The notes beneath the pieces are model-generated. The model did no database searches. It worked only from the letters and a program-made list of their open reading frames with translations, and had not been told where the DNA came from. This document shows positions 3,001 through 62,662 of a DNA stretch of 64,000 nt, in pieces. The stretch spans positions 24,804,001-24,868,000 of the forward strand of contig NC_053415.1 in the NCBI RefSeq assembly GCF_016859285.1. The letters are read 5' to 3'. This DNA is from Xiphias gladius. Lineage: Eukaryota; Chordata; Actinopteri; Istiophoriformes; Xiphiidae. How positions within the stretch are numbered: position 1 is the stretch's first letter; each line of letters begins with the position of its first letter. A program made the translations under genes and the position numbers.

Positions 3001-6000
3001 TCTGACTTTGTCTAAATACCGGCTCGTAAAGTGCACGAGTGCACTGTACCTTCACCTGGCTCCAGCAGATTCTTAGAGCCTCTCTCAGAGGGCAGCCTCC
3101 CCCCTCCGCCTGCTCCACCCTGCCCGGCTGTCTGTTTTCTAAAGTTCTGTCTCCCTGTTTTATCTCTTCCTCCTCGCTGCTTCCCATTTATCTCCTCTGA
3201 AAGACAGCGAGTGGAAAGATTAAGAATACAACACAGCATCAGTGCATCGGCCAGTAGTTCAAGTCATCATTTTAAATATAGTAAAAATAGAACATGGAGG
3301 ACATATCTGACCTGACACTTGACAAAATGCTGTCAAATAAAGATGTAAACTGGGAATACTTTAAATACGATTTCACATCCAAAAAAACAAAATACCTTGA
3401 ATTAAAAAATGTCCAAATAACATTGGACAAAATGATCACATAATGTATTTTAAGTTAACGCATCGTGAAATTTCTCACACATTCCAAACTGCATCAGTAC
3501 CAACAACTCTGAAACAAACGTATTTAACCATAGATGTATAAATGAAACAAAGGCATACCAGCAATTACTAAGGGTTTGTTATGCGTAACCAGTTTATTTC
3601 AGATGTCTTTGCTAGCCAGGACATTTCTTACGTTTTAAGGGTGCAAACTGATTTAGTATATCACCAACCGATGCAAACCAATCTCGGGCAGTGTCCGAAA
3701 TCACGCCCTTGGTTGCTCATTGACTTCTTCCCATTTAATGGACACTCAATAGTTTACGCTATAGTGAGCAGTACACTGAGAAGTTTGCCCTCCACTGTAT
3801 TTTGATTATGAATGAGAATAACGGAGTCTGTGGAATCAGCTTGATAGTTATTGTTGATTTTGATGTTTTGAGGATTTGTTGAAAAGACCAAAAAAAACAA
3901 TTAGTATATTGCCAGTCTTGTCCTTTAACCCACATGCCATTGGGAAAAACACAAACTGAGTCATAGTGTGTAAACTCCCTCCGTGTGTTTCTTTTGTTAC
4001 CCTCCTTCTCAGGAAACAGCAGAGGTAGAAACAAAGGCTGCTGATGGAGCCTAGTGGGATTTTCTCGGGATTGGAACCCGTCTCTTTCTGCTCGCGGCTG
4101 GGCATCCTGCCGGGTCTGATCCCGGTTCGCTCGCGCAGGGGCAACACCGCGGCTCTCTGCTATGGGAGGTAGGCGCCGTGCACGGAGCTCATCACTGTCC
4201 GAGCTCTCCCATCTCGGCTGAAACATTCAACACAGGCATGTCTGCCTTAGATCATGTAAATCTAAGGCAGACATGCCCTAGTTTTGCTCTTAGATCACGT
4301 GATGCCACATGAGGGAACTTAGGATTTCAGTCAGTATTTTAAATAAAACAAATTCTGATGTCCTGAGAAATGAGAACGTACAAAAAAATATTGTCATGTG
4401 ATATGCACCTTTGCATATCTACATTTGTGCAGTTGTCGAACAACATTGTAGATGATTAACTGCCAACCAATGTCACTAAAAGTTAAAAAGAGAAATAAAA
4501 CATTTCTTCTTCTTTTTTGACATAAAACATATTCATTTAAAATTCCATCAGATGGAACTTTTTATTTCACCAGCAGTCTTCTGTACATGTGCTGCAAATG
4601 TCTAGAGTTCTGATAAAAAAACACCTGGTGGTGCAAAAGTGCAATTATATGTTTTCATAGTAGTTTGAAAGAACTGCTAAACCAAATATTTGCTATTTTT
4701 TAATCACAAAAATGAAAACCGCTGTCTTACCCTGTCTGTCTTCTCCCAGATGGGTCCATAGGAGACTGACTGTCCCTCTTTCAAAGGAGGAAGGAACAGG
4801 CCTGTGTCTGGGGGGAGGCAATCAGAGCATCATGGTTATCAACATACTGCACAGGATAAAAGTTCCGTGTTATTCATTTACTGTTGCTGCCGTACTACTC
4901 CGACTTCTTGTGTTTGACTGCTGCTCCGCTCCACATAGTCTGACTCGAGAGCAGTCAGGAAGCTGCGGCTTTTAACTGATGCACTGAAGAGGAAGGTGAG
5001 CGCATGATTTACACCCATTACAAATTTACAACTTACAACTTTACCTATCCTCCCATTTCTGTTCCCACTTATGGCTCTTTCATTGTTCCCTTTTTCATCG
5101 GTCGTCCCACTGTTTCTCCGAATGGAGCAGCCCGGATCATCTGCCGCGTCACGGAAACAGTTGGTGTTTGGATGGTGGAGCTCCTCTCCCTTACTGTGGT
5201 GGTTTATTTCAGTATACTGTGAACTCTCAGTAGGCTGCAGACTCATGTCTAAGTAAGTCTGCAGGTGATAGGAAAGAAAAATAAATTAAACAAAATTAAA
5301 AAGAGCATCATTAACCCAATTCCATACATTTTGCTAAGATAAATGAGTATTAACAAATGTCTTTAGATGTAACTTCAGTCATTAGCAAGTCACCGGAGGT
5401 TCTTCAGGTTCTTCAGGGGTCATTGCTAAATAGTGTACCCAGGGCTGAGGCGCCGTCTGTGGGGTTGGAGTCCTGGAGGTACAGGGTATCTGGAGGAACA
5501 GGTCCAGCCTGAAGCTGTTCCTGCTGCCTGGCTGCTCCTCTTTATCTGCAGACAAGGTTAATTTTAGGATGCTGGGTTGCTTTTAGTGGGTCCAGGAGAG
5601 TTGAATTGGTTTTATTCTTCCACTGGGTTAGTTTTGTTTCAGTAAGAAAAATGTCTGACTAAAGATTTGGTCCTTGACTGCGCAGAAGTTTAGGTCGTTT
5701 TTACACCAAATTCGCTCCATTTTCCTTGCTCATAATAGCATACTATAAAAGAGTGTTGTAGTCGGGATTTCCAGCTTCTCAACTAAACTACAGAAACCCA
5801 CGCATATTTTGTCATTTTTAATTTTGGGGGTTTCACCAGAGTTTCTGTTTTGGACTTTGAAACTTCACCTATATTAGTTTCTATCCACCCATCTGTCCGC
5901 CTGTCCATTATTTACCCTCAGGTTGATTCTCCAGTTGTTCAGTACAGTTTTCCTCTGCAGGAAGCCGCTGTGGGTTCAACTGTACAAGCAACTCTGGACT

Positions 6001-7704: not shown

Positions 7705-9562
7705 GATGACATGTCGTCCTAGAGGACAGCTGAGTCAAAGAGGATTGATTAGGTTATTCCATTGATTCCAAGGTAACGAAGACGACAATGACGGTGCTAT
7801 ATCCTGATGATACTGACTTGATCTTGTCAAATAAAACTTGACTACTGGGCTTAGGTTACTTTTTCTCCCTTTGTCCGCGTGGGTCTTGATATGCAGGTAA
7901 ACTGGAAACTTTTAGTTGCATGAGCGTAAGGCGTGAGTGTACGCATGAACTACAGTAGGTTATCTTTCAGTGTGCGTGTTTGTACTTTGATAGACTGGCG
8001 ACCCGTCCAGCTGGACCCTGCTTCTCAACCGACGTGTGCCGGGATGGGTTCCAACCCTCTCTACCCATAAGGGTATAGAAAGCACATGGCTGGATATTGG
8101 GTTCAGGAATGAGGAGGAGAAATACGTGTTGGCGGTTAGTAAGAATAAAATTCCAGGAGATGGCCCCTGCACCGGAACATTTATCTCTATGGTGAAGTCA
8201 CTTGCATATCACTGACTGCATTCAAAACTAAAGACAATTTTACTATCAGGACCTACAGGGCACAGCTGTGAAGCTGCGTTGCTTTTAATGATTTCCTAAA
8301 TATCCCTTTGTCCCAGCAGTTTACCACCTCTCAGGTTGTCTTTATTTTAAGCAGCGATTTCATGAGTAAATGTGACTATTTTGATTTTTCATTCACATCT
8401 GCACAGTCTGTAACCTTTAAATGTATGCTACCTGAATAAAACTTATTCTTGGTTAGACTCTAATCTTTGATTCATCGACTGGTTAACTTATTCAATTTCT
8501 TGTTATCCATAAATTGGCAGTAGGCAACCATAAGCAATTTCCGAAAAAACTACAACCAACTGAATTTTCCCTCTTTATAAATTAGTATTCGGCAGCCACA
8601 CCAACTACATACATGGCTCCACAATGCTACTGTTTTACTCATGGGCATTACGGAGCCGCTGCCCAGGAAACATGTGATTTACCTCAGCACTTTGAGCGTG
8701 TGTTAATAAATAAGACTGTTCTCCCTCTCGTAAAGTGTGTATAAAAAATCTAAGCCTACTGTACACGTGACGAAGCATACAACAGAATCTGCACTTAATC
8801 CAGTGTCTGAAAATGATTCCAGGGTCAGCGGCATGCATTGCTGTCAGACATTTCTACCACTTGCACACACATAGGGTTGCAATTATATGAATGTAGTGAT
8901 GTGATACAAGGTATGCTTTAATGAGGCAGTGGGTTACGAGAAATCTTAAGCTATAAAACGGGAAAACTATAGGCATCAGTGTTTTCTGTGTAAAAAAGTC
9001 GTTGTGGAGCACGGTTCATTATCTTATAATTTCACAGTGTAATACTGCCTTCAAGATTCATCGCACTGAATGTTCTTCGTCATCTAACAGGGATGATATC
9101 GCCTTCAACGGGGCAACGGAGTACTGGATATATCGCGGCAGATAACACGTGAAAAGGAAGAAACAAATGAATGTTATTAAGAAAACCGATGCATAATTTA
9201 GAGCACTGACAGTGACACACGTGACTTCCAGTTAAAATCGTGATTAATCGAGCTTTCAGTTTAGCTGAATGTTAAAGCAGAATAAGCTTATATTCCTGAG
9301 TCACCGACATTACAAGTAGCCAACAGTGAGGAGGTCAAGGATAAGAGCCCGGAAAATATTCCTGAGATAGAATCTCCTGAAAAAAAAGTCGAGTAAGGAA
9401 GGGAGATAGAGATTTTGCGTAAATATAGTTAGTTTGTCAGCTCCTTATAACAACTTCATGATTTGTATCATGCTTTATAGAAGAAATAAGAAATAAAAGA
9501 CAAAACACTGGACATACCTGCTGTCTCCCTTACAAAGACCCTCTCTCTCTCTCACTCTCTCT

Positions 9563-10969: not shown

Positions 10970-11932
10970 TTAAATTCTCTCCATGAAAATGTGCAGCCGC
11001 AATGTTTTCGATGTCAACAAATTTTTACAAGCATGTCTAATTTTTGACAGTTTAAGACCATACATGATTGGATTTTGAAGAGGCTGGATGATCACTACAT
11101 ACATAGACAAGAAAACACAGAGAGGATATGGAACTGAGAACATGTCAAATCTCTGAGTGATCAAACTATAAAAACAGGCAAAGACAAAGCTAATAAGTGA
11201 AACTAAATGTGGAGTGCAGGTATCCAAAGCCTTCATTCTGGTCTCTTTAGAAGCTTTTAAACACACCGCCAAAATCTTTACATAACTGTATGAAATATAA
11301 GTGACAGGAGCAGCAACAGTGAAAATAAGGCCAAAAACTAGATCATGAATAAGTGACACTGTTCTGTCTAATGAACAAGAAAGTTCAACTAAAAGGTGAT
11401 GCGCACAAAATACTTTGTTGATAACAGTCCCGCAACGCTTCAAATTAATAGTGAAAGACAATAAAACTCCAACCTCTACAAAAGAAACTATCCAGATCAC
11501 AAGTATGACAATCTGTACTTTTCTTTTAGTTATTATTGCATTGTAATGCAAAGGTTTACAAATACACACATATCTGTCATATGCCATTATTGTTAATGTT
11601 CCAAATTCAATAGCTACATATGTATGAATATTAAAGATTTGAAGGAAGCAGTAAAAGGCAGAAATTTCATGAATGTCTGACAAGATTTGTACCATCAAGC
11701 AGGGCAGCATAGACGTGCTGCCATATATTTCATTAATAAATAAATTGCACAGGAATAGATACATGGGCTCATGCAGGTTTTTCTCCCCATAAATAATGAT
11801 AATAAGAACAGTGTTGGCAAAAATAACCGATATGTAAAATAGCATTGCCAGAGTGAAATACAGGTACTTTAATTGTCCCAAGTCACCGTACATAGCCAAC
11901 ACAAACGACACAATCTCTGTTGAGTTCTCCAT
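10970..11932 (-). CDS. Teleost olfactory receptor (intact, single coding exon)
   Basis: The 320-aa protein is a seven-helix rhodopsin-like receptor expected in the plasma membrane and cilia of olfactory neurons, coupling to Golf. It shows an N-glycosylation site right after the start (MENST), LHEPMY in the first intracellular loop, MAYDRYVCICKPLHY at the end of TM3, KALDTCTPHL before TM6 and NPIMYG in TM7, all hallmarks of the OR family. The frame is open further upstream to 12067, but Met at 11932 gives the usual OR length and N-terminus, so I chose it. It stands alone, on the strand opposite to the first TAAR gene. No stop or frameshift is seen. The ligand is unknown, and I cannot assign the fish OR subgroup with confidence. 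Confidence 0.92.
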   Translation of the reverse strand: MENSTEIVSFVLAMYGDLGQLKYLYFTLAMLFYISVIFANTVLIIIIYGEKNLHEPMYLFLCNLFINEIYGSTSMLPCLMVQILSDIHEISAFYCFLQIFNIHTYVAIEFGTLTIMAYDRYVCICKPLHYNAIITKRKVQIVILVIWIVSFVEVGVLLSFTINLKRCGTVINKVFCAHHLLVELSCSLDRTVSLIHDLVFGLIFTVAAPVTYISYSYVKILAVCLKASKETRMKALDTCTPHLVSLISFVFACFYSLITQRFDMFSVPYPLCVFLSMYVVIIQPLQNPIMYGLKLSKIRHACKNLLTSKTLRLHIFMERI

Positions 11933-12518
11933 CGACCCAGCAATAAGACACAACAATACATTTGACGATTTGCCTTTTGAGGATATGTGATTGCAAATGT
12001 TGAAAGGCAATTCAGTGTTAAAATGTGTCAAGAGTAAATGAAGAAAAATTACAAACACATATTTCACACTTAAAGAATATCTTCATGGTTACAGAATATA
12101 AATACATAAAAGTATGCTTTTACTTTACGATTCAATAATTGATCTACCAGTGAATTAATAAATGAAAACATCCTATATCAAGATTTGTCAAGAGAACCTG
12201 TAATTACAAACAACTATTTAAAAAGAGCTAAGATAAATTAATGTTTATGAGACCCAGTTCCGCTATGAGATTTTCTGAAGTATGTGACAGATGGATAATC
12301 AATAGAAAACTGAAGACTGCTGTAACCGCCCCTCCCTAATGAGACAATCAGAGGCAGTTGCTGAACCTTTATACTGATGTCCTGGAAGGAAAAAGAACAC
12401 GACAGGCAGAATGTAATGCCAATTTGGACTGAGATACTGTTTCTTGTAGAATGAAGCCATGTGTAGATGTAGAAAATGCCAAGTCAAGTACAAGTCCTAC
12501 ATGTTGAGTTCTGAGTCC

Positions 12519-20812: not shown

Positions 20813-22322
20813 ATGGAGACCCTGGAGGGAGCCGAACTCTGCTTCCCACAGCTCCTGAACACCTCATGTCGGTGGAAGCCGGGGCAGCGTCGCGCTCAGA
20901 CAATCTTCATTTACATCCTGCTGTCCTGTATCTCTCTGCTCACTGTGGCTCTCAACCTGATGGTCATCGTCTCTGTCTCCCACTTCAGGCATGAAGATTC
21001 ACTTCTGAGCATAACCTCAAATGATTTTTATTTTTCTTTATATCAATATTTTTCTTAACATCTGAAGAGTTGGCTTTGGGACAACAGAGATTTTGTTACA
21101 TCACAGCAACATTGTGAGATGAAATCATTCTGAACGATTGACATGTACTGCATTCAGCATTAAACATCGTTGTATAGTTTTACTACTACAACTAAATTCT
21201 CTCTCTGAGACCATCCTCGAACCTCCTAATGATGTGAAAGTTGGAATCCAGCCCTCTGCTCCTCTGCTACAGACACACAAACCGTAGTATACAGAACTGA
21301 TACATGCGCTGCCTCTGTTGTCACGTTCAAGCCTTTAACGAGCAACATCCTAGCTCTTCAGAGATGTTACTGCAGCTTCTACACTGATGTATCTGGACAC
21401 ACTTTGTTTATTTGATGATTCATGCTGTTGCAGACTTCCACAACTGCTCCATACGATAATATGTTCAGTGATGATATTCTCCCTCTCCAGGCGGCTGCAC
21501 ACCCCCACCAACCTCCTCCTCCTCTCTCTGGCTGTCTCAGACTTCCTCGTGGGGCTCCTGCTGCTGCCGGCTCAAATCCTCCTCATAGGGGGCTGCTGGT
21601 TTTTGGGGAGCTTTTTATGTGGACTACTTGCCTATGCCTCTTTTATCATTACATCCGCCTCGATAGGAACCATGGTGCTCATATCTGTTGACCGCTATGT
21701 GGCCATTTGTGACCCTCTGCATTACCCCACCAAAGTCACTGTGAAAAGAGTTCAGATCAGTGTTTGTCTGTGTTGGGCCTGTTCTGTGTCGTACAACAGT
21801 GTGATACTGAACGTCTTCCAGAGACATCCAGGTACATATAACTCCTGCTATGGAGAGTGTATAGTTGAAATCAACTTCATAGCAGGGGCTGTTGATGTCA
21901 TGTTGACCTTTATTGGCCCCATTGCCGTCATCATAGTTCTGTATCTGGGAGTGTTTGTGGTGGCTGTGTCCCAGGCTCGTGCCATGCGCTCCCACGTTGC
22001 AGCCGTCACACTCCGGCGTTCGGAGGCCGTAAAATCTAAGAAATCTGAAATGAAAGCAGCCCGGACTCTCGGTGTTGTTGTGTTTGTGTTTCTAATATGT
22101 TTCAGTCTTTATTTCTATCCCTCTCTCGCGGGCCAGGACGTGTCAAACAGCGTGGCAATATCCGTTTTTGGGATCTGGTTACTTTATTGCAACTCCTGTC
22201 TAAATCCACTGATCTATGTTTTTTTCTACCCCTGGTTTAGAAAATCAGTTCAACTCATTGTTACACTTCAGATACTTCAGCCAGACTCCCGTGATGCCAA
22301 CCTGCAGGGCAGACTGTTTTAG
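20813..22322 (+). CDS. Trace amine-associated receptor, plus-strand member (two exons)
   Basis: Exons 20813-20988 and 21491-22322 join in phase 2 to a 335-aa receptor. The intron (502 bp) has a GC donor and AG acceptor. Hallmarks: N-terminal NTSC, HFRRLHTPTN after TM1, DRY at residues 126-128, and the TAAR signature NSxxNPxxYxxxYxWF in TM7. The amine-binding Asp3.32 is replaced by Ser109, while Asp5.42 (Asp194) is present, as in non-classical fish TAARs. TM6 is odd: the usual CWxP is CFSL, so Pro6.50 and Trp6.48 are both missing. The start was chosen by alignment with the other copies; an in-frame ATG at 20666 would add 49 residues with no family match. It is the most diverged copy and the only one on this strand. 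Likely an olfactory amine receptor; ligand unknown. Confidence 0.9.
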
Positions 22323-25147: not shown

Positions 25148-26444
25148 CTACATTAAATTGGCCTCACAGGAGCCAGGCTGCAGTATCTGAAGTGTAACAA
25201 TGAGTTTAATAGATTTCCTGAACCAAGGATAGAAAAAAACATAGATCACAGGGTTGAGACAGGAGTTGAAATACACCAGCCAAATCTCAACAGCTGCAGA
25301 TGATGACCCTACCGAGTTGCTCTCAGCTGCAACAGCGAAACAATAATATGGACAGGAGCACAACATAAAAACAACCACTACAACACCAAGAGTCCTGGCG
25401 GCTTTCATTTCAGATTTCTTAGCTTTTACGGCCTTTGAACGCTGGAGTGTGACGGCTGCAACGTGAGCACGCATGGCACGAGCCTGGGACACAGCCACCA
25501 CAAACACTCTCAGATACAGAAGTGTAATGACTAAAATGGGGCCTAAAAAGGTCACAACAAGGTCAACAGCTCCTTCAACAAAACTGACTACAACTACACA
25601 CTCTCCATAACAGGAGTTGTTCCTGTGTGGTTGTTTGAGGAAATCCCTCAGTATCCAGCTGCTGTGGACAGCAGAAAATATCCAACACAGACAAATGCAG
25701 AGCTGAACTCTTTTCACAGTGACTTTGGTGGTGTAAGACATGGGCTCACAAATAGCCACATAGCGGTCAACCGATATGAGCACCATGTTTCCCACTGAAA
25801 CACTGACAATGAGGAAACCTAAAAAGTAATGTACAGCACATGTGAAGTCACCAAGGATCCAGCAGCCTTGGCTGCCGAGAAGTAGAACTGGCATCTGCAG
25901 GAGACCCACGAGGAAGTCTGCGAAAGCCAGAGAGAGGAGGAGGAGGTTGGTGGTGGTGAAGAGCTGCCTGAAATGGGAGAATGTCAACACTGAAGACATT
26001 GTTATATTCAGAAGCTGTAGAAATAAGAGGTATTAACAGTTATAATACTAAAAGAATGAACTGTACTGTAACATGACTAAATGCAGCACAGTATAACAGA
26101 TTAATTCTATGCACTATTTATGTCCTAGCGGAGCAGGTAAGTGGATTTGCAGCAGCATATGCCATACAGCAAATGTAAAAACAAAGGATAAATCAAAAAT
26201 GTTTCCATTAGCGTCCTAAATGTGAAATCATGTTGCCCATAGCTGGAACCCAAGAGAAGAAATTTTATCTCTGCCTGAAGTGGGAGATAGAGATGATGAC
26301 CAGAAGGTTAAGAACCACAGTGAGCAGAGCGATGCAGGTCAGCAGACTGTAGATGAGCGAGGTCTCCGAGTGAGGACGTATCGTCTTCCTGCAGGAGGTG
26401 TTGAGTTGGGGAAAGCAGAGTTCAGCTTCTTCCAGGGCCTCCAT
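25148..26444 (-). CDS. Trace amine-associated receptor, minus-strand copy 1
   Basis: Exons 26275-26444 and 25148-25967 join in phase 2 (329 aa); intron 307 bp, GC-AG. The start ATG has A at -3 and G at +4. Residues 1-27 are the extracellular tail with N-glycosylation site NTS (15-17); TM1 about 30-51; DRY 124-126; Asp5.42 at 192; Gly107 stands where Asp3.32 would be; NSCLNPVIYVFFYPWF from 291. The toggle position 6.48 is Ser. An in-frame upstream ATG at 26504 could add 20 residues. Compared with the other copies its TM2/ECL1 region is unusual (MPVLLLGSQGCW instead of MPAEILLFRGCW), and its proximal upstream region has lost the octamer found in the other six. Intact and presumably functional; ligand unknown. 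Confidence 0.92.
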
Positions 26445-32581: not shown

Positions 32582-33878
32582 CTACATTAAATTGGCCTCA
32601 CTGGAGCCAGGCTGCAGTATCTGAAATGTAACAATGAGTTTAATAGATTTTCTGAACCAGGTGTAGAAAAAAACATAGATCACAGGGTTCAGACAGGAGT
32701 TGAAATACACCAGCCAAAGTTCGATGGCTGCAGATGATGACCCTACCGAGTTGTTTTTAGCTGCAACAGCGAACCAATAATATGGACAGAAGCACAGAAG
32801 AAACACAACAACAACAACCCCGAGAGTCCTGGCTGCTTTCATTTCAGATTTCTTAGCTTTTACGGCCTCTGAACGCTGGAGTGTGACGGCTGCAACGTGA
32901 GCACGCATGGCACGAGCCTGGGACACAGCCACCACAAACACTCTCAGATACAGAAGTGTAATGACTAAAATGGGGCCTAAAAAGGTCACAACAAGGTCAA
33001 CAGCTCCTTCAACAAAACTGACTACAACTACACACTCTCCATAACAGGAGTTGTTCCTGTGTGGTTGTTTGAGGAAATCCCTCAGTATCCAGCTGCTGTG
33101 GACAGCAGAAAATATCCAACACAGACAAATGCAGAGCTGAACTCTTTTCACAGTGACTTTGGTGGTGTAAGACATGGGCTCACAAATAGCCACGTAGCGG
33201 TCAACCGATATGAGAACCATGTTTCCAACTGAAACACTGACAATGAGGAAACCTAGAAAGTAATTCACAGCGCATATGAAGTCACCCAGGATCCAGCAGC
33301 CTCGGAAGAGGAGGATTTCAGCTGGCATCTTCAGGAGACCCACGAGGAAGTCTGCGAAAGCCAGAGAGAGGAGGAGGAGGTTGGTGGTGGTGAAGAGCTG
33401 CCTGAAATGGGAGAATATCAATACTGAAGACATTGTTATATTCAGAAGCTTTAGAAATAAGAGTTATTAACAGTTATAATACTAGAAGTATGAACTGTAC
33501 TGTAACATGACTAAATGCAGCACAGTATAACAGATTAATTCTATGCACTATTTATGTCCTAGCGGAGCAGGTAAGTGGATTTGCAGCAGCATATGCCATA
33601 CAGCAAATGTAAAAACAGAGGATGCATCAAAAATGTTTCCATTAGCATCCTAAATGTGAAATCATGTTGCCCATAGCTGGAACCCAAGAGAAGAAATTTT
33701 ATCTCTGCCTGAAGTGGGAGATAGAGATGATGACCAGAAGGTTAAGAACCACAGTGAGCAGAGTGATGCAGGTCAGCAGACTGTAGATGAGCGAGGTCTC
33801 CGAGTGAGGACGTATCGTCTTCCTGCAGGAGGTGTTGAGTTGGGGAAAGCAGAGTTCAGCTTCTTCCAGGGCCTCCAT
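32582..33878 (-). CDS. Trace amine-associated receptor, minus-strand copy 2
   Basis: Exons 33709-33878 and 32582-33401, GC-AG intron of 307 bp, 329 aa. Asp5.42 present, Gly at 3.32, DRY intact. The TM7 signature reads NSCLNPVIYVFFYTWF, with Thr instead of Pro before WF, shared only with copy 3. Position 6.48 is Phe. ECL2 reads HRNNSCYGEC, as in copies 1 and 3. An in-frame upstream ATG at 33938 could extend the protein by 20 residues. It lies in the first 8.8-kb unit and is almost identical to copy 3, so the pair is the youngest large duplication. Intact. Confidence 0.92.
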
Positions 33879-34037: not shown

Positions 34038-34069
<32 letters not shown>

Positions 34070-41419: not shown

Positions 41420-42716
41420 CTACATTAAATTGGCCTCACTGGAGCCAGGCTGCAGTATCTGAAATGTAACAATGAGTTTAATAGATTTTCTGAACCAGGT
41501 GTAGAAAAAAACATAGATCACAGGGTTCAAACAGGAGTTGAAATACACCAGCCAAAGTTCGATGGCTGCAGATGATGACCCTACCGAGTTGTTTTTAGCT
41601 GCAACAGCGAACCAATAATATGGACAGAAGCACAGAAGAAACACAACAACAACAACCCCGAGAGTCCTGGCTGCTTTCATTTCAGATTTCTTAGCTTTTA
41701 CGGCCTTTGAACGCTGGAGTGTGACGGCTGCAACGTGAGCACGCATGGCACGAGCCTGAGACACAGCCACCACAAGCACTCTCAGATACAGAAGTGTAAT
41801 GACTAAAATGGGGCCTAAAAAGGTCACAACAAGGTCAACAGCTCCTTCAACAAAACTGACTACAACTACACACTCTCCATAACAGGAGTTGTTCCTGTGT
41901 GGTTGTTTGAGGAAATCCCTCAGTATCCAGCTGCTGTGGACAGCAGAAAATATCCAACACAGACAAATGCAGAGCTGAACTCTTTTCACAGTGACTTTGG
42001 TGGTGTAAGACATGGGCTCACAAATAGCCACGTAGCGGTCAACCGATATGAGAACCATGTTTCCAACTGAAACACTGACAATGAGGAAACCTAGAAAGTA
42101 ATTCACAGCGCATATGAAGTCACCCAGGATCCAGCAGCCTCGAAAGAGGAGGATTTCAGCTGGCATCTGAAGGAGACCCACGAGGAAGTCTGCGAAAGCC
42201 AGAGAGAGGAGGAGGAGGTTGGTGGTGGTGAAGAGCTGCCTGAAATGGGAGAATATCAATACTGAAGACATTGTTATATTCAGAAGCTGTAGAAATAAGA
42301 GTTATTAACAGTTATTATACTAGAAGTATGAACTGTACTGTAACATGACTAAATGCAGCACAGTATAACAGATTAATTCTATGCACTATTTATGTCCTAG
42401 CGGAGCAGGTAAGTGGATTTGCAGCAGCATATGCCATACAGCAAATGTAAAAACAAAGGATAAATCAAAAATGTTTCCATTAGCGTCCTAAATGTGAAAT
42501 CATGTTGCCCATAGCTGGAACCCAAGAGAAGAAATTTTATCTCTGCCTGAAGTGGGAGATAGAGATGATGACCAGAAGGTTAAGAACCACAGTGAGCAGA
42601 GCGATGCAGGTCAGCAGACTGTAGATGAGCGAGGTCTCCGAGTGAGGACGTATCGTCTTCCTGCAGGAGGTGTTGAGTTGGGGAAAGCAGAGTTCAGCTT
42701 CTTCCAGGGCCTCCAT
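41420..42716 (-). CDS. Trace amine-associated receptor, minus-strand copy 3
   Basis: Exons 42547-42716 and 41420-42239, GC-AG intron of 307 bp, 329 aa. Differs from copy 2 by only a handful of residues (for example KMPAEI to QMPAEI, LRVFVV to LRVLVV, SEAVKA to SKAVKA). Shares the YTWF variant in TM7 with copy 2. Asp5.42 present, Gly at 3.32, Phe at 6.48. Here the CT repeat just before the start is 2 bases longer than in copies 1 and 2, so the upstream ATG at 42778 is out of frame and would make a short overlapping upstream frame. Intact. Confidence 0.92.
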
Positions 42717-43244
42717 TGTCAGAGAGAGAGGAGAAGCTGCCGAGCTCTGACAGCTTTCTGATTAAGGCTCTTTGTCATACAGCGGATTTATCTCTTTCCT
42801 TCCTCTCCTCCCATATGCAAATTTCATCTTGTCAGAAGGCTAAAGCTGAGTAGGTCATATTCTGGCCCCTGGTACTCATCTATCTATTTATCTATTTATC
42901 TATCTATATCTACATATATGTACCTATTTATCTGTTCTACATCTAATGTGCTGTAGTCTAATATCCTGATGTTGCCTGAACTAGTGTCCTTGAGTCTCAA
43001 CAACGAGATCAAACTAAGTTTGCAATATCAAATAATAAACAATCTGAGAGAGGAGGAGGAGGAAACGCTGAGAGATTGTCAGTGCATTTCACAGACTGAA
43101 AGTGATGACCATGTACTGCAGATGTCAGAGGCGCGGTTGGTTTTGGAGTTCCTGCCAATAGCATTTTAGCAGATCCAGTTTACACACAAATTTAGCATTT
43201 CCAAGATTGTCAAGGAAGTCTTTCATTCAGTGTAATGTTTATGG

Positions 43245-47165: not shown

Positions 47166-48462
47166 CTACATTAAATTGGCCTCACAGGAGCCAGGCTGCA
47201 GTATCTGAAATGTAATAATGTGTTTAATAGATTTCCTGAACCATGGATAGAAAAAAACATAGATCACAGGGTTCAGACAGGAGTTGAAATATAACAACCA
47301 AATCTCAATGGTTGAAGATGACGCCCCTACCGAGTTGTTCTCAGCTGCAACAGTAAAACAATAATATGGACAGGAGCACAACATAAAAACAACCACTACA
47401 ACACCAAGAGTCCTGGCTGCTTTCATTTCAGATTTCTTAGCTTTTACGGACTCTGAACGCTGGAGTGTGACGGCTGCAACGTGAGCACGCATGGCACGAG
47501 CCTGGGACACAGCCACCACAAACACTCTCAGATACAGAAGTGTAATGACTAAAATGGGACCTAAAAAGGTCACAACAAGGTCAACAGCTCCTTTAACATT
47601 ATTAATTACAACTACACACTCTCCATAACAGGAGTTATACATGTCTGGTTGTTTGAGGAAATCCCTCAGTATCCAGCTGCTGTGGACAGCAGAAAATATC
47701 CAACACAGACAAATGCAGAGCTGAACTCTTTTCACAGTGACTTTGGTGGTGTAAGACATGGGCTCACAAATAGCCACGTAGCGGTCAACCGATATGAGCA
47801 CCATGTTTCCCACTGAAACACTGACAATGAGGAAACCTAAAAAGTAATTCACAGCGCATATGAAGTCACCAAGGATCCAGCAGCCTTGGAAGGGAGGGAT
47901 TTCAGCTGGCATCTGCAGGAGACCCACGAGGAAGTCTGCAACAGCCAGAGAGAGGAGGAGGAGGTTGGTGGTGGTGTGGAGCTGCCTGAAATGGGAGAAT
48001 ATCAATACTGAAGACATTGTTATATTCAGAAGCTGTAGAAATAAGAGTTATTAACAGTCATAATACTAGAAGAATGAACTGTACTGTAACATAACTAAAA
48101 ACAGCACAGTATAACAGATTAATTCTATGCACTATTTATGTCCTAGCGGAGCAGGTAAGTGGATTTGCAGCAGCATATGCCATACAGCAAATGTAAAAAC
48201 AAAGGATAAATCAAAAATGTTTCCATTAGCGTCCTAAACGTGAAATCATGTTGCCCATAGCTGGAACCCAAGAGAAGAAATGTTATCTCTGCCTGAAGTG
48301 GGAGATAGAGATGATGACCAGAAGGTTAAGAACCACAGTGAGCAGAGTGATGCAGGTCAGCAGACTGTAGATGAGCGAGGTCTCCGAGTGAGGACGTATC
48401 GTCTTCCTGCAGGAGGTGTTGAGTTGGGGAAAGCAGAGTTCAGCTTCTTCCAGGGCCTCCAT
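47166..48462 (-). CDS. Trace amine-associated receptor, minus-strand copy 4
   Basis: Exons 48293-48462 and 47166-47985, GC-AG intron of 307 bp, 329 aa. Distinct features: LHTTTNLLLLSLAVAD after the intron, MPAEIPPFQGCW in ECL1, MYNSCYGEC in ECL2, and VINNVKGAVD before TM5 (Asp5.42 kept). TM7 signature is canonical (FFYPWF), followed by a variant tail KHIITFQ. Position 6.48 is Ser. The upstream ATG is out of frame. Intact. The ECL1, ECL2 and TM5 changes sit around the expected ligand pocket, so its ligand range may differ from copies 1-3. Confidence 0.92.
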
Positions 48463-48654
48463 TGTCAGAGAGAGAGGAGAAGCTGCCGAGCTCTGACAGC
48501 TTTCTGATTAAGGCTCTTTGTCATACAGCGGATTTATCTCTTTCATTCCTCTCCTCCCATATGCAAATTTCATCTTGTCAGAAGGCTAAAGCTGAGTAGG
48601 TCATAGTCTGGCCCCTGGTACTCAGCTATCTATCTATCTATCTATCTCTCTATC

Positions 48655-48661
<7 letters not shown>

Positions 48662-48726
<65 letters not shown>
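48662..48726. repeat. (TA)n microsatellite, about 32 units
   Basis: A pure TA tract of about 65 bases next to a TATC tract, upstream of TAAR copy 4. No other unit has a TA tract of this length. Confidence 0.95.
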
Positions 48727-51528: not shown

Positions 51529-52957
51529 CTACATTAAATTGGCCTCACAGGAGCCAGGCTGCAGTATCTGAAGTGTAACAATGAGTTTAATAGATTTCCT
51601 GAACCAAGGATAGAAAAAAACATAGATCACAGGGTTCAGACAGGAGTTGAAATATAACAACCAAATCTCAATGGCTGCAGATGACGCCCCTACCGAGTTG
51701 TTCTCAGCTGCAACAGTAAAACAATAATATGGACAGGAGCACAACATAAAAACAACCACTACAACACCAAGAGTCCTGGCTGCTTTCATTTCAGATTTCT
51801 TAGCTTTTACGGACTCTGAACGCTGGAGTGTGACGGCTGCAACGTGAGCACGCATGGCACGAGCCTGAGACACAGCCACCACAAACACTCTCAGATACAG
51901 AAGTGTAATGACTAAAATGGGACCTAAAAAGGTCACAACAAGGTCAACAGCTCCTTTAACATTATTAATTACAACTACACACTCTCCATAACAGGAGTTA
52001 TACATGTCTGGTTGTTTGAGGAAATCCCTCAGTATCCAGCTGCTGTGGACAGCAGAAAATATCCAACACAGACAAATGCAGAGCTGAACTCTTTTCACAG
52101 TGACTTTGGTGGTGTAAGACATGGGCTCACAAATAGCCACATAGCGGTCAACCGATATGAGCACCATGTTTCCCACTGAAACACTGACAATGAGGAAACC
52201 TAAAAAGTAATTCACAGCGCATATGAAGTCACCCAGGATCCAGCAGCCTCGGAAGAGGAGAATTTCAGCTGGCATCTGCAGGAGACCCACGAGGAAGTCT
52301 GCAACAGCCAGAGAGAGGAGGAGGAGGTTGGTGGTGGTGAAGAGCTGCCTGAAATGGGAGAATATCAACACTGAAGACATTGTTATATTCAGAAGCTGTA
52401 GAAATAAGAGTTATTAACAGTTATAATACTAGAACAATGAACTGTACTGTAACAACATGCAGAAATACAGCACAGTGTTACAGTTGTAAGCATTTTCAAA
52501 TGACCAATATTCACTCATCAAAGACCTAAACAAGAAAACATTCTAGAAGAGAAGGTTAGTAAATGTGCAGCAGCCTGATATGTGAGATATGTGATTTGCT
52601 TTACTAATTATTTTTTTCATTATCACTGTTGCTGATTATCTCAAAAACACTATAATCATACTTATCATTAACTTTCAAAGTAACAACGGTAGACATAGAA
52701 GTATGTGTCCTACACAGTGTATCACATGTTAAACATAAGCACAAAAAATGCTGTCAGTATGTTCTAATCTACTAATGTTATCTCTGCCTGAAGTGGGAGA
52801 TAGAGATGATGACCAGAAGGTTAAGAACCACAGTGAGCAGAGTGATGCAGGTCAGCAGACTGTAGATGAGCGAGGTCTCCGAGTGAGGACGTATCGTCTT
52901 CCTGCAGGAGGTGTTGAGTTGGGGAAAGCAGAGTTCAGCTTCTTCCAGGGCCTCCAT
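51529..52957 (-). CDS. Trace amine-associated receptor, minus-strand copy 5 (chimeric unit)
   Basis: Exons 52788-52957 and 51529-52348, GC-AG intron of 439 bp, 329 aa. The exon 2 protein follows copy 4 in ECL2 and TM5 (MYNSCYGEC, VINNVKGAVD) but has FTTTN and MPAEILLFRGCW like copies 2, 3 and 6. Its 3' flank is type I (block P), while its intron and 5' flank are type II, like copies 6 and 7. It thus marks the boundary between the two unit types and is best read as the product of unequal crossing-over within or near the gene. Asp5.42 present, Gly at 3.32, Ser at 6.48. Intact. Confidence 0.92.
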
Positions 52958-53117: not shown

Positions 53118-53222
53118 CATCTATCTATCTATCTATCTATATATATATATTTGTATATAGATATATATATCTATATACATATACATATATCTATATATAT
53201 AGATATATGTATCTATCTATCT
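53118..53222. repeat. TATC/TA compound microsatellite
   Basis: A short TATC tract then AT-rich TATATC/TATACA words, repeated with slightly different lengths at 57565 and 62020. Confidence 0.9.
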
Positions 53223-55962: not shown

Positions 55963-57404
55963 CTACATTAAATTGGCCTCACAGGAGCCAGGCTGCAGTA
56001 TCTGAAGTGTAACAATGAGTTTAATAGATTTCCTGAACCAAGGATAGAAAAACATAGATCACAGGGTTCAGACAGGAGTTGAAATATAACAACCAAATCT
56101 CAACGGCTGCAGATGACGCCTCTACCAAGTTGTTCTCAGCTGCAACAGTAAAACAATAATATGGACAGAAGCACAACATAAAAAAAACCACTACAGCACC
56201 AAGAGTCCTGGCTGCTTTCATTTCAGATTTCTTAGCTTTTACGGCCTTTGAACGCTGGAGTGTGACGGCTGCAACGTGAGCACGCATGGCACGAGCCTGG
56301 GACACAGCCACCACAAACACTCTCAGATACAGAACTATGATGAGAGCAATGGGACAAAGAAAGGATAGAACAAGATCAACAGCTCCTTCAACAAAATTAA
56401 TTACAACTACACACTCTCCATAACAGGAGTTATACATGTCTGGTTGTTTGAGGAAATCCCTCAGTATCCAGCTGCTGTGGACAGCAGAAAATATCCAACA
56501 CAGACAAATGCAGAGCTGAACTCTTTTCACAGTGACTTTGGTGGTGTAAGACATGGGCTCACAAATAGCCACGTAGCGGTCAACCGATATGAGCACCATG
56601 TTTCCCACTGAAACACTGACAATGAGGAAACCTAGAAAGTAAATCATAGCACATATGAAGTCACCCATGATCCAGCAGCCTCGGAAGAGGAGGATTTCAG
56701 CTGGCATCTGCAGGACACCCATGAGGAAGTCCGCGAAAGCCAGAGAGAGGAGGAGGAGGTTGGTGGTGGTGAAGAGCTGCCTGAAATGGGAGAATATCAA
56801 CACTGAAGACATTTTTATATTCAGAAGCTGTAGAAATAAGAGTTATTAACAGTCATAATACTAGAAGAATGTACCCTACTGTAACAACATGCAGCACAAC
56901 ATTACAATTGTAAAAGCCTTTGCAAAACAATCAATATGCCCTCATCAAACACCTAAACAAACAAAGAAAAAACATTACTTCTGTGCACTATTTGTTTCAT
57001 AGATGAGAAAGTGACTGGATGTGCAGCAGCTTCATATGTGAGGAATCACTACTAATAATTTTTTCAATAACACTTTTACTGATTATCTCAAAAACACTAT
57101 AATGATACTTATCATTAACTTTCAAAGTAACAACGGTAGACATAGAAGTATGTGTCCTACACAGTGTATCACATGTTAAACATAAGCACAAAAAATGCTG
57201 TCAGTATGTTCTAATCTACTAATGTTATCTCTGCCTGAAGTGGGAGATAGAGATGATGACCAGAAGGTTAAGAACCACAGTGAGCAGAGTGATGCAGGTC
57301 AGCAGACTGTAGATGAGCGAGGTCTCCGAGTGAGGACGTATCGTCTTCCTGCAGGAGGTGTTGAGTTGGGGAAAGCAGAGTTCAGCTTCTTCCAGGGCCT
57401 CCAT
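55963..57404 (-). pseudogene. Trace amine-associated receptor, minus-strand copy 6, frameshifted in TM7
   Basis: Exons 57235-57404 and 55963-56780, GC-AG intron of 454 bp. The run of seven A (plus strand) that encodes FF in TM7 of the other copies is five A at about 56048-56052. This 2-base loss shifts the frame after NPVIYVF, giving a stop at 56021 and a 309-aa product that lacks the YPWF end and the cytoplasmic tail. The rest is intact: Asp5.42, DRY, Gly at 3.32, Phe at 6.48, and a TM5 variant DLVLSFLCPIALIIVLY shared with copy 7. The original stop position (55963) is kept. As the change is in a homopolymer, a sequencing or assembly error is possible; otherwise this is a very young pseudogene. 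Confidence 0.8.
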
Positions 57405-58216
57405 TGTCAGAGAGAGAGGAGAAGCTGCCGAGCTCTGACAGCTTTCTGATTAAGGCCCTTTGTCATGCAGCTGATTTATCTCTTTCCTTCCTCTCCTCCC
57501 ATATGCAAATTTCATCTTGTCAGAAGGCTAAAGCTGAGTAGGTCATATTCTGGGCCCTGGTACTCATCTATCTATCTATCTATCTATCTATCTATATATA
57601 TATATTTGTATATAGATATATATATCTATATACATATACATATATCTATATATATAGATATATGTATCTATCTATCTGTTCTACATCTATTGTGCTGTAG
57701 TCTAATATCCTGATGTTGCCTGAACTAGTGTCCCTGATTCTCAAAAACGAGATCAAACTAAGTTTGCAATATCAAATAATACACAATCACAACCCTAACT
57801 CCCAAACTCTGTTACCTGTAGACTATGTTAAGTAGGACTACACAATCAAAATAAACGTCAAATAAAACAATTAATTAAAAACACAGAGGCGGACCGCTCA
57901 GGACAGCTAAAACATTTTTCAATCCCTTTTTATGCCTGTTTTTCAGATTGAAGAAGACTTTCATCAATAAAGCCCACAGCGTGGCTACATGCGGGAGAGG
58001 AACATGAAAGGGTTGTGGTGACTGTATATTATGACGGGCGAGCGGATGGAGCCGATACAGAGCTTCGGTGTTGCAGGGGCAACAACAGGGCTAGGTTTTC
58101 TTTCTGATAGTGGAATATTTTGTCTGGTGCTTTCTAAACTTGTGGGGCAAATAGCTGAAGGTCTACTCCATCCACATTTTCCTGCAGTAGTACAGCACGT
58201 GGAAACAGAAGCACAA

Positions 58217-60413: not shown

Positions 60414-61857
60414 CTACATTAAATTGGCCTCACAGGAGCCAGGCTGCAGTATCTGAAGTGTAACAATGAGTTTAATAGATTTCCTGAACCAAGGATAGAA
60501 AAAAACATAGATCACAGGGTTCAGACAGGAGTTGAAATATAACAACCAAATCTCAATGGCTGCAGATGACGCCTCTACCAAGTTGTTCTCAGCTGCAACA
60601 GTAAAACAATAATATGGACAGAAGCACAACATAAAAACAACCACTACAGCACCAAGAGTCCAGGCTGCTTTCATTTCAGATTTCTTAGCTTTTACGGCCT
60701 TTGAACGCTGGAGTGTGACGGCTGCAACGTGAGCACGCATGGCACGAGCCTGGGACACAGCCACCACAAACACTCTCAGATACAGAACTATGATGAGAGC
60801 AATGGGACAAAGAAAGGATAGAACAAGATCAACAGCTCCTTCAACAAAATTAATTACAACTACACACTCTCCATAACAGGAGTTATACATGTCTGGTTGT
60901 TTGAGGAAATCCCTCAGTATCCAGCTGCTGTGGACAGCAGAAAATATCCAACACAGACAAATGCAGAGCTGAACTCTTTTCACAGTGACTTTGGTGGTGT
61001 AAGACATGGGCTCACAAATAGCCACGTAGCGGTCAACCGATATGAGCACCATGTTTCCCACTGAAACACTGACAATGAGGAAACCTAGAAAGTAAATCAT
61101 AGCACATATGAAGTCACCCAGGATCCAGCAGCCTCGGAAGAGGAGAATTTCAGCTGGCATCTGCAGGACACCCATGAGGAAGTCCGCGAAAGCCAGAGAG
61201 AGGAGGAGGAGGTTGGTGGTGGTGTGGAGCTGCCTGAAATGGGAGAATATCAACACTGAAGACATTTTTATATTCAGAAGCTGTAGAAATAAGAGTTATT
61301 AACAGTCATAATACTAGAAGAATGTACCCTACTGTAACAACATGCAGCACAACATTACAATTGTAAAAGCCTTTGCAAAACAATCAATATGCCCTCATCA
61401 AACACCTAAACAAACAAAGAAAAAACATTACTTCTGTGCACTATTTGTTTCATAGATGAGAAAGTGACTGGATGTGCAGCAGCTTCATATGTGAGGAATC
61501 ACTACTAGTAATTTTTTCAATAACACTTTTACTGATTATCTCAAAAACACCATAATCATAGTTATCATTAACTTTCAAAGTAACATTGGTAGACATAGAA
61601 GTATGTGTCCTACACAGTGTATCACATGTTAAACATAAGCACAAAAAATGCTGTCAGTATGTTCTAATCTACTAATGTTATCTCTGCCTGAAGTGGGAGA
61701 TAGAGATGATGACCAGAAGGTTAAGAACCACAGTGAGCAGAGTGATGCAGGTCAGCAGACTGTAGATGAGCGAGGTCTCCGAGTGAGGACGTATCGTCTT
61801 CCTGCAGGAGGTGTTGAGTTGGGGAAAGCAGAGTTCAGCTTCTTCCAGTGCCTCCAT
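60414..61857 (-). CDS. Trace amine-associated receptor, minus-strand copy 7
   Basis: Exons 61688-61857 and 60414-61233, GC-AG intron of 454 bp, 329 aa. Shares with copy 6 the TM2/ECL1 variant DFLMGVLQMPAEI, INFVEGAVD and DLVLSFLCPIALIIVLY in TM5, and with copy 4 LHTTTN. Asp5.42 present, Gly at 3.32, Phe at 6.48, TM7 signature intact. At the cytoplasmic start of TM6 it has MKAAWTLG where all other copies have MKAARTLG, a loss of a basic residue near the G-protein contact. Otherwise intact. Confidence 0.92.
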
Positions 61858-62662
61858 TGTCAGAGAGAGAGGAGAAGCTGCCGAGCTCTGACAGCTTTCT
61901 GATTAAGGCTCTTTGTCATACAGCGGATTTATCTCTTTCCTTCCTCTCCTCCCATATGCAAATTTCATCTTGTCAGAAGGCTAAAGCTGAGTAGGTCATA
62001 TTCTGGGCCCTGGTACTCATCTATCTATCTATCTATCTATCTATATATATATATTTGTATATAGATATATATATCTATATACATATACATATATCTATAT
62101 ATATAGATATATGTATCTATCTATCTGTTCTACATCTATTGTGCTGTAGTCTAATATCCTGATGTTGCCTGAACTAGTGTCCCTGATTCTCAAAAACGAG
62201 ATCAAACTAAGTTTGCAATATCAAATAATACACAATCACAACCCTAACTCCCAAACTCTGTTACCTGTAGACTATGTTAAGTAGGACTACACAATCAAAA
62301 TAAACGTCAAATAAAACAATTAATTAAAAACACAGAGGCGGACCGCTCAGGACAGCTAAAACATTTTTCAATCCCTTTTTATGCCTGTTTTTCAGATTGA
62401 AGAAGACTTTCATCAATAAAGCCCACAGCGTGGCTACATGCGGAGAGGAACATGAAAGGGTTGTGGTGACTGTATATTATGACGAGCGGATGGAGCCGAT
62501 ACAGAGCTTCGGTGTTGCAGGGCAACAACAGGGCTAGGTTTTCTTTCTGATAGTGGAATATTTTGTCTGGTGCTTTCTAAACTTGTGGGGCAAATAGCTG
62601 AAGGTCTACTCCATCCACATTTTCCTGCAGTAGTACAGCACGTGGAAACAGAAGCACAAACT

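Follow-up and report, generated by a model that had tools for sequence, protein, structure and literature searches.

Genes of one receptor family in Xiphias gladius carry, at one and the same codon of the first intracellular loop, a predicted GC-AG intron with a short word of the exon repeated across both splice sites. The explanation that we prefer, and to which we give about an even chance, is that the intron was gained once, by insertion of DNA with a short target duplication, and that its GC donor came from the exon. Held slightly more tentatively, at a little below an even chance, is the fuller proposal that an insertion duplicating AGGC gave an intron born with a GC donor, which was kept throughout the family and turned into GT a single time, by changes that include those at -1 and +2. 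Vertebrates rarely gain introns, and the origin of a gained intron can as a rule no longer be read from its sequence. In this family a seemingly single gain has left many descendants, which coexist with intronless relatives and whose donor looks like unchanged exon sequence. If the proposal is true, the family records, gene by gene, how splice sites age from an exonic origin.

The window, i.e. the whole stretch of DNA that was analysed, comprises 64,000 nt (C16:24804001-24868000), and the genome that was searched 690.8 Mb. The minus strand of the window holds seven near-identical two-exon receptor genes and the plus strand one divergent gene, p21, which was absent from the first-pass annotation of this DNA (Table 1). 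The spliced protein of the minus-strand gene m26 matches the Pfam family 7tm_1 (PF00001, E 5.6e-45), and its best relative of solved structure is TAAR13d (E 1.4e-63), placing it among the TAARs (class A GPCRs). The genes are fish TAARs, probably of class III as we read the literature. Against TAAR13 chains the protein runs without a gap across the exon junction (viisishfrqlftttn versus viisiahfkqlqtttn), in line with the first-pass claim that splicing would restore an uninterrupted SHFRQ. Elsewhere in the window, a single-exon open frame (10970-12082, minus strand) resembles, by eye, an odorant-receptor-type GPCR and matches the TAAR queries at 23%, and a tRNA-like match (Rfam RF00005, 47.3 bits) is located at 2610-2681 on the plus strand.

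The junction of m26 splits codon 57, in SHF-R, in agreement with the place described for the class III intron (PMC4415300), which follows Phe and precedes a basic residue at about codon 55. Under the AG-acceptor rule, all 19 modelled introns interrupt their genes in phase 2 (AG/G or AA/G, the slash marking the splice junction). When the frame is read on from exon 1, an in-frame stop is met within each of the 19 introns examined, after three codons in eight minus-type copies, after one codon in five genes with a GT donor and, in the remaining six introns, after 4 to 37 codons. The donor reads CAG/GCA (+1 to +3 being GCA) at all nine distinct GC loci, and CAG closes each of the seven distinct GC introns whose end is known; with its GC start, AG end and CAG/GC donor the intron would class as a GC-AG intron of U2 type. 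Inspection of the repeat revealed that GC..AG alone restores SHF-R/K-Q-L with AG at the intron end, and on these sequence grounds we regard the GC donor as very probably real.

Other donors were tried and rejected. The GT donors in the last 53 nt of m26 exon 1 are all in phase 0 (inspection), and the in-frame acceptor considered for them, CTACAG/CTTCTG, breaks the TAAR spacing from the TM1 Asn to HFRQ; nor is this acceptor kept, since it reads CTAAAG in one copy and CCACAACT in p21. AT-type donors after GCAG have an inconsistent first dinucleotide, and no donor resembles the U12 consensus.

A 17-bp word (16 of 17 identical) lies across both splice sites of m26, as TCTCCCACTTCAGGCAG and TCTCCCATTTCAGGCAG, exactly as first annotated, and the same pair is present in all seven minus-strand genes, whose introns measure 307 bp in four, 439 bp in one and 454 bp in two; an eighth copy is found outside the window, in L014. 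Because the seven are near-identical tandem duplicates they count as a single observation, and we rejected their use as seven independent confirmations. In p21, exon 1 ends with TCTCCCACTTCAG/GCAT and the intron with TCTCCCTCTCCAG/GCGG. The 307-bp introns and those of 439-454 bp (e.g. 25968-26274 versus 52349-52787) agree in their first 14 bases and over approximately 100 bases at the 3' end, and have largely different middles, as though the interiors had been swapped with both ends retained. The gene m57 (56021-57404, minus strand) has lost the normal C-terminus, its frame stopping at 309 aa as against 329. All but one of the seven minus-strand genes have a TATC/TA microsatellite about 160 bp 5' of the start codon, at very different lengths.

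Table 1. Features of the TAAR genes in the window (positions are those of the window; all gene structures are predicted).
Feature	Position	Strand	Details
m26 exon 1	26275..26444	-	ATG to ..CACTTCAG
m26 GC-AG intron	25968..26274	-	phase-2 intron of 307 bp, interrupting an Arg codon (AG/G)
m26 exon 2	25148..25967	-	
m26 direct-repeat copy 1	26271..26287	-	TCTCCCACTTCAGGCAG, across donor TCTCCCACTTCAG/GCAG
m26 direct-repeat copy 2	25964..25980	-	TCTCCCATTTCAGGCAG, across acceptor TCTCCCATTTCAG/GCAG
Homologous GC-AG intron	33402..33708	-	307 bp; exons 33709-33878, 32582-33401
Homologous GC-AG intron	42240..42546	-	307 bp; exons 42547-42716, 41420-42239
Homologous GC-AG intron	47986..48292	-	307 bp; exons 48293-48462, 47166-47985
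Homologous GC-AG intron	52349..52787	-	439 bp; exons 52788-52957, 51529-52348
m57 homologous GC-AG intron	56781..57234	-	454 bp; exons 57235-57404, 56021-56780
Homologous GC-AG intron	61234..61687	-	454 bp; exons 61688-61857, 60414-61233
p21 exon 1	20813..20988	+	divergent TAAR paralog
p21 GC-AG intron	20989..21490	+	502 bp, CAG/GCATGA .. TCTCCCTCTCCAG
p21 exon 2	21491..22322	+	
TATC/TA microsatellites	34038-34067, 42881-42933, 48626-48726, 53122-53220, 57569-57675, 62019-62124		

The pattern extends beyond what had first been noted. Whole-genome protein and pattern searches, together with the loci retrieved, gave at least 24 junctions in the genome (16 of GC type, five of GT type at the same site and three intronless), all totals being lower bounds. 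The pattern search contributed at least 23 words (three intronless, 15 GC and five GT); p21, which it lacked because p21 differs from the pattern, was added as the 16th of GC type. The GC set consists of eight minus-type copies, p21, L014b, L015a, a copy in L017, L023a, a copy in L023, L027 and L029, the last on C6; the frames of L015a and L027 (C23) are broken. The copies in L017 and L023 are known from exon 1 only. These remnants (C16:24905172 and C16:27081547, respectively) retain the GC donor word, and exon 2 was not found within the stretches retrieved around them. L023b and L017psi (exon 1 only) were used in donor counts alone, and L033 was left out. The GT genes are located in L015, L016, L017 (two) and L018 and have the donors CAA or TAA/GTAACC or GTAGC. 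Donor nucleotide position and phase do not differ among the 21 junctions with a GC or GT donor, of which two are known from exon 1 only.

In the three intronless genes, L026 (C15) and L030 and L031 (both C13), the exon word (CACTTCAGGCAG / CACTTCAGGCAGCTCC) is uninterrupted, in agreement with the first-pass view that the family consists of TAARs with a gained intron. A distant intronless gene outside the census count, L032, which we take to be TAAR1-like, reads TACTTTAAGCAG, with AAGC instead of AGGC. An exact 17-mer also occurs at C16:2.33 Mb (L025), presumably by chance, since nothing around it matches a TAAR.

A coding-DNA tree of 15 genes was calculated with the junction codon excluded and rooted with the three intronless genes; m57, m33, m48, m869, m61, L015a, L027 and the TAAR1-like gene were left out. 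The intron-bearing genes form a clade (99/97) in which L029, with its GC donor, branches first; support is 93/94 for the rest without L029 and 96/97 for the GT clade, and a single change of donor type suffices for the tree. The intron-bearing clade was weaker, and unstarred, in the protein trees (84/91 without damaged genes, 78/92 and 91/92 with them), from which m57, m33, m48, m869 and m61 and, in the set without damaged genes, also L015a were left out. A first tree, lacking m57 and L015a, was inspected before the clade tests were run. Monophyly of the GC genes was rejected on coding DNA (AU test, p 0.010 with all codon positions and 0.025 with positions 1+2) and on proteins including two damaged genes (p 0.026 if the TAAR1-like row was kept, 0.027 if it was removed), and was not rejected in one of the five tests, that on proteins without damaged genes (p 0.176).

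Since the GT genes constitute one clade and GC monophyly was rejected in four of five tests, GC is probably the ancestral donor. Combined with the one-change tree, the AGGC present in the three nearest intronless relatives makes a GC-first history with one switch to GT, accompanied by Arg to Lys, the simplest one, and the first-pass suggestion that the GC donor is the old exonic AGGC is most probably correct. The intron may instead have been lost secondarily from the intronless relatives, a course of events suggested for some subfamilies in the cichlid study (PMC4415300).

That the GC-AG and GT-AG introns were gained separately, at the same codon, appears very improbable to us. Such a history would agree with the GT genes forming one supported clade, and also with L015a, a GC gene adjoining the GT genes, which was not recovered as their sister (though a sister position could not be rejected, p 0.29 and 0.42). 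For class III TAARs, Hussain et al. (2009) reportedly described two gains of an intron that were independent of each other. However, donor position and phase are shared by all 21 junctions, the GT clade is nested among the intron-bearing genes, from which L029, a GC gene, separates earlier, and the intron of L015a is close in size to those of the GT genes (149 versus 152-227 bp).

At +4 of the donor, where the usual consensus letter is A, six of the nine distinct GC loci have G and none has A. The 5' ends of the GC loci (e.g. 26274-26268, minus strand) exhibit A at +5 in eight of nine and at +7 in nine of nine, and vary at other positions. Consensus donors carry G at +5, and the GC loci depart from the strong consensus of GC donors, GCAAGT, +5 being A in eight of nine and the U1 pairing low. 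The conserved A at +5 and +7 may compensate for the weak donor. The predicted U1 duplexes amount to -4.5 to -4.9 kcal/mol for the nine GC donors and -3.0 to -4.0 kcal/mol for four GT donors, as compared with -9.3 (GC) and -14.0 kcal/mol (GT) for consensus donors. The intronless exon word of L026 reaches -4.5 kcal/mol, and the GC donors have therefore gained almost no U1 pairing. Their low pairing fits an exonic origin, although so weak a pairing also counts against the explanation preferred here. New introns of Drosophila are described as having weak sites and relying on nonsense-mediated decay (PMC2809761), and the early in-frame stops of the TAAR introns would permit such decay likewise. In L015, a GC-type intron of 149 bp (3168-3316, GCACATAACC) is situated near a GT-type gene (7707-7859), GT introns starting with GTAACCACAT; by eye, the GT donor may have arisen via a small insertion and not by point changes.

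A serious rival to an insertion with target duplication, albeit one that we consider rather unlikely, is convergence. The intron would have entered a proto-splice site, CAG/G, by any route and without target duplication, and a pyrimidine-rich exon end together with the requirements of an acceptor would have produced the likeness, by drift strongest in the young tandem family of the window. Since the repeat coincides with the splice-signal stretch, convergence can mimic it, and direct repeats of at least 5 bp are reported to flank 26% of conserved Drosophila introns (PMC3443670).

The m26 tract at -13..-4 matches the end of exon 1 at 9 of 10 positions, which was equalled by 0.26% of tract shuffles (p 0.0026). 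Of 977 windows in the m26 coding sequence one reached 9/10, namely the exon-1 end itself, and among 1037 pyrimidine tracts ending in CAG, taken from the window and the retrieved loci, those away from TAAR junctions reached 8/10 in five cases and 9/10 in none (the scan included TAAR words; L025 was set aside, having been retrieved because it contained the word). The first-pass test, by which absence of intron-end similarity in relatives would speak against a duplication origin, gave a divided answer. The tract matches the gene's own exon 1 at 7-9 of 10 positions in m26 (9), p21 (8), L014b (8), L015a (7) and L027 (7), and at 6 in L023a and in the earliest-branching L029; the GT representatives L017p, L018, L017m and L015b have 7, 5, 5 and 4 matches. 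Hence a strong match (9/10) is confined to one young family, and this gradient, like the restriction of the similarity to splice-signal positions, is in line with convergence.

Considered jointly, the seven GC introns match at 51 of 70 tract positions against 30.0 expected (permutation of acceptor columns, p 0.0009), and all 11 representative introns, out of 19, at 72 of 110 (p 0.0027). For the seven, the joint p value is 0.0047 at -20..-4 and 0.019 at -30..-4, and in a register scan from -8 to +8 the true register (51/70) was followed by 44/70 as the next best; their plurality acceptor is TCTCCCACTCCAG, to be compared with TCTCCCACTTCAG in the exon. These composition-preserving controls, for the m26 tract as well as for the seven introns, argue against convergence. 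Convergence also leaves unexplained why the apparent first donor should be GC, the letters of the exon, when GC donors make up about 0.8% of splice junctions in protein-coding genes (PMC7242645), and why +4 is G in six of nine loci.

At the 5' end of the intron, identity with exon 2 is limited to GCAG (4 of 4 in m26, L014b, L023a and L027, and 2-3 of 4 in the others), and at +5..+24 the match to exon 2 was not above chance in any of the 11 representative introns (the score was reached by a fraction of at least 0.14 of the control windows, the minimum being that of L018). The similarity consequently ends at about -13 and +4. Strongly conserved columns of the GC introns (at least 5 of 7 acceptors, or about two thirds of donors) match the exon in 11 of 11 cases inside -13..-4 and +1..+4 and in 2 of 17 outside, out to -40 and +40; inside the repeat, -9, -7 and -4 lack a strong majority, and the plurality letter at -4 differs from the exon. 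The Fisher p value for inside versus outside, 3.6e-06, is optimistic, because the limits were chosen after the repeat had been seen. A short repeat bounded at -13 and +4 would be expected of a target-duplicating insertion, but here it is confounded with splice-signal constraint.

The origin first annotated, birth of the intron by tandem duplication, did not hold up as stated: the columns outside the word match at 2 of 17, allowing one gap does not rescue the match, and 17 bp are too short. A longer version, in which a long exon segment containing AGGC was duplicated as in the Rogers model, the duplicated word supplied both sites and the intron is a decayed exon copy, is a minor rival and distinctly improbable. 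The word does lie in the right register over both splice sites with the protein unaltered (at 16/17 in the window family and with lower similarity in the other lineages), and there is experimental precedent in vertebrate ATP2A1 (PMC4974935). In end-anchored gapped alignments of the last 60 intron bases with exon 1, tract included and covering 12 of the 19 introns, few shuffles per 1000 did as well for m26 (16), m61 (4) and L014b (8), and the best one-gap extension is an in-frame shift of 3 nt (36/84). However, the other nine of the 12 introns did not come below 0.04 in that test (p21 293 per 1000, the other eight 41 to 320), the best single-gap shift is not significant at the acceptor (p 0.22) or at the donor (p 0.37), and of 12 intron bodies compared with coding sequence one fell below 0.05 uncorrected (m26, 7 of 200 shuffles; next L018, 18 of 200). 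With 2 of 17 outside columns matching and no significant gapped extension, the intron body does not show itself to be a copy of the neighbouring exon, although a copy may have decayed beyond recognition. The open frames LLNITMSSVLIFSHFRQ and CLTVVCSVMIFSLSRQ had prompted the idea that the 3' end of the intron is a decayed copy of the TM1 exon; since the shift test upstream of the tract gave p 0.22, this is not claimed.

Given that a 17-bp duplication alone cannot make an intron of 149-502 bp, and given the pattern of conserved columns, we favour insertion between short target copies. A single gain would have taken place after the lineage had split from the intronless relatives on C13 and C15, with DNA inserted precisely at CAG/GCAG, in the Ser-His-Phe-Arg-Gln stretch of the first intracellular loop. 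The insert would have come to be flanked at either end by exon sequence, comprising no less than CAGGCAG and probably the greater part of TCTCCCACTTCAGGCAG. The upstream copy may then have served as a weak GC donor (CAG/GCAG) and the downstream copy as pyrimidine tract and CAG acceptor, so that excision of the intervening DNA would restore the original frame exactly. Most descendants would have kept the GC donor, and GT (CAA or TAA/GTA.., with Arg to Lys) would have appeared once, in one clade.

The TAAR intron itself is already published; in the main texts of the open-licence literature searched, we found no report of a GC donor or flanking repeat in TAAR introns. An interloop-1 intron of family A (class III) TAARs is described in cichlids, stickleback, medaka and pufferfishes (PMC4415300, 2015), with about 80% of cichlid TAARs carrying it and a gain placed at the root of family A, followed by losses, and salmon TAARs are given as single-exon (PMC4065256). 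The published intron belongs to the same family and lies at the same place, after the Phe codon and before a basic residue, but is assigned phase 0 as compared with phase 2 here, and the main text of PMC4415300 contains no 'GC-AG'. A slide of 2 nt inside the repeat gives the Phe-Arg boundary of that paper, and the two would accordingly be the same junction; the slide may also be why the donor type went unremarked. Gene models restricted to GT donors may miss or mis-slide these receptors. With this family it can also be tested directly if a GC donor can stand at the birth of an intron, and how weak donors evolve to GT.

Among known systems, the Rogers model and ATP2A1 (PMC4974935, PMC3443670) likewise have a duplicated exon word that provides donor and acceptor without altering the protein, but the word contains AGGT there and AGGC here, and no exon-like intron interior was demonstrated in the TAARs. 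The novel introns of MC2R/MC5R and other GPCRs in fishes with compact genomes (PMC3151243) are, as here, gains specific to fish; they largely occupy proto-splice sites, most in phase 2 and one in the DRY motif; they concern other receptors and positions, and the main text of that paper mentions neither TAARs nor GC-AG. The insertion favoured here resembles the gains attributed to repair of staggered double-strand breaks, as these accounts present them: in Daphnia (PMC4202315) an exon repeat of 4-12 bp stands at the opposite intron end, and in Drosophila (PMC2809761), where splice sites are weak, the repeat measures at least 8 bp and, for one intron, matches at 16/18 bp across the splice sites. 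Both have, as here, an intron body of unknown origin and, at the end away from the adjoining exon, a short copy of that exon's sequence, whereas the TAAR intron is old and not recent, has a GC donor and belongs to a vertebrate multigene family.
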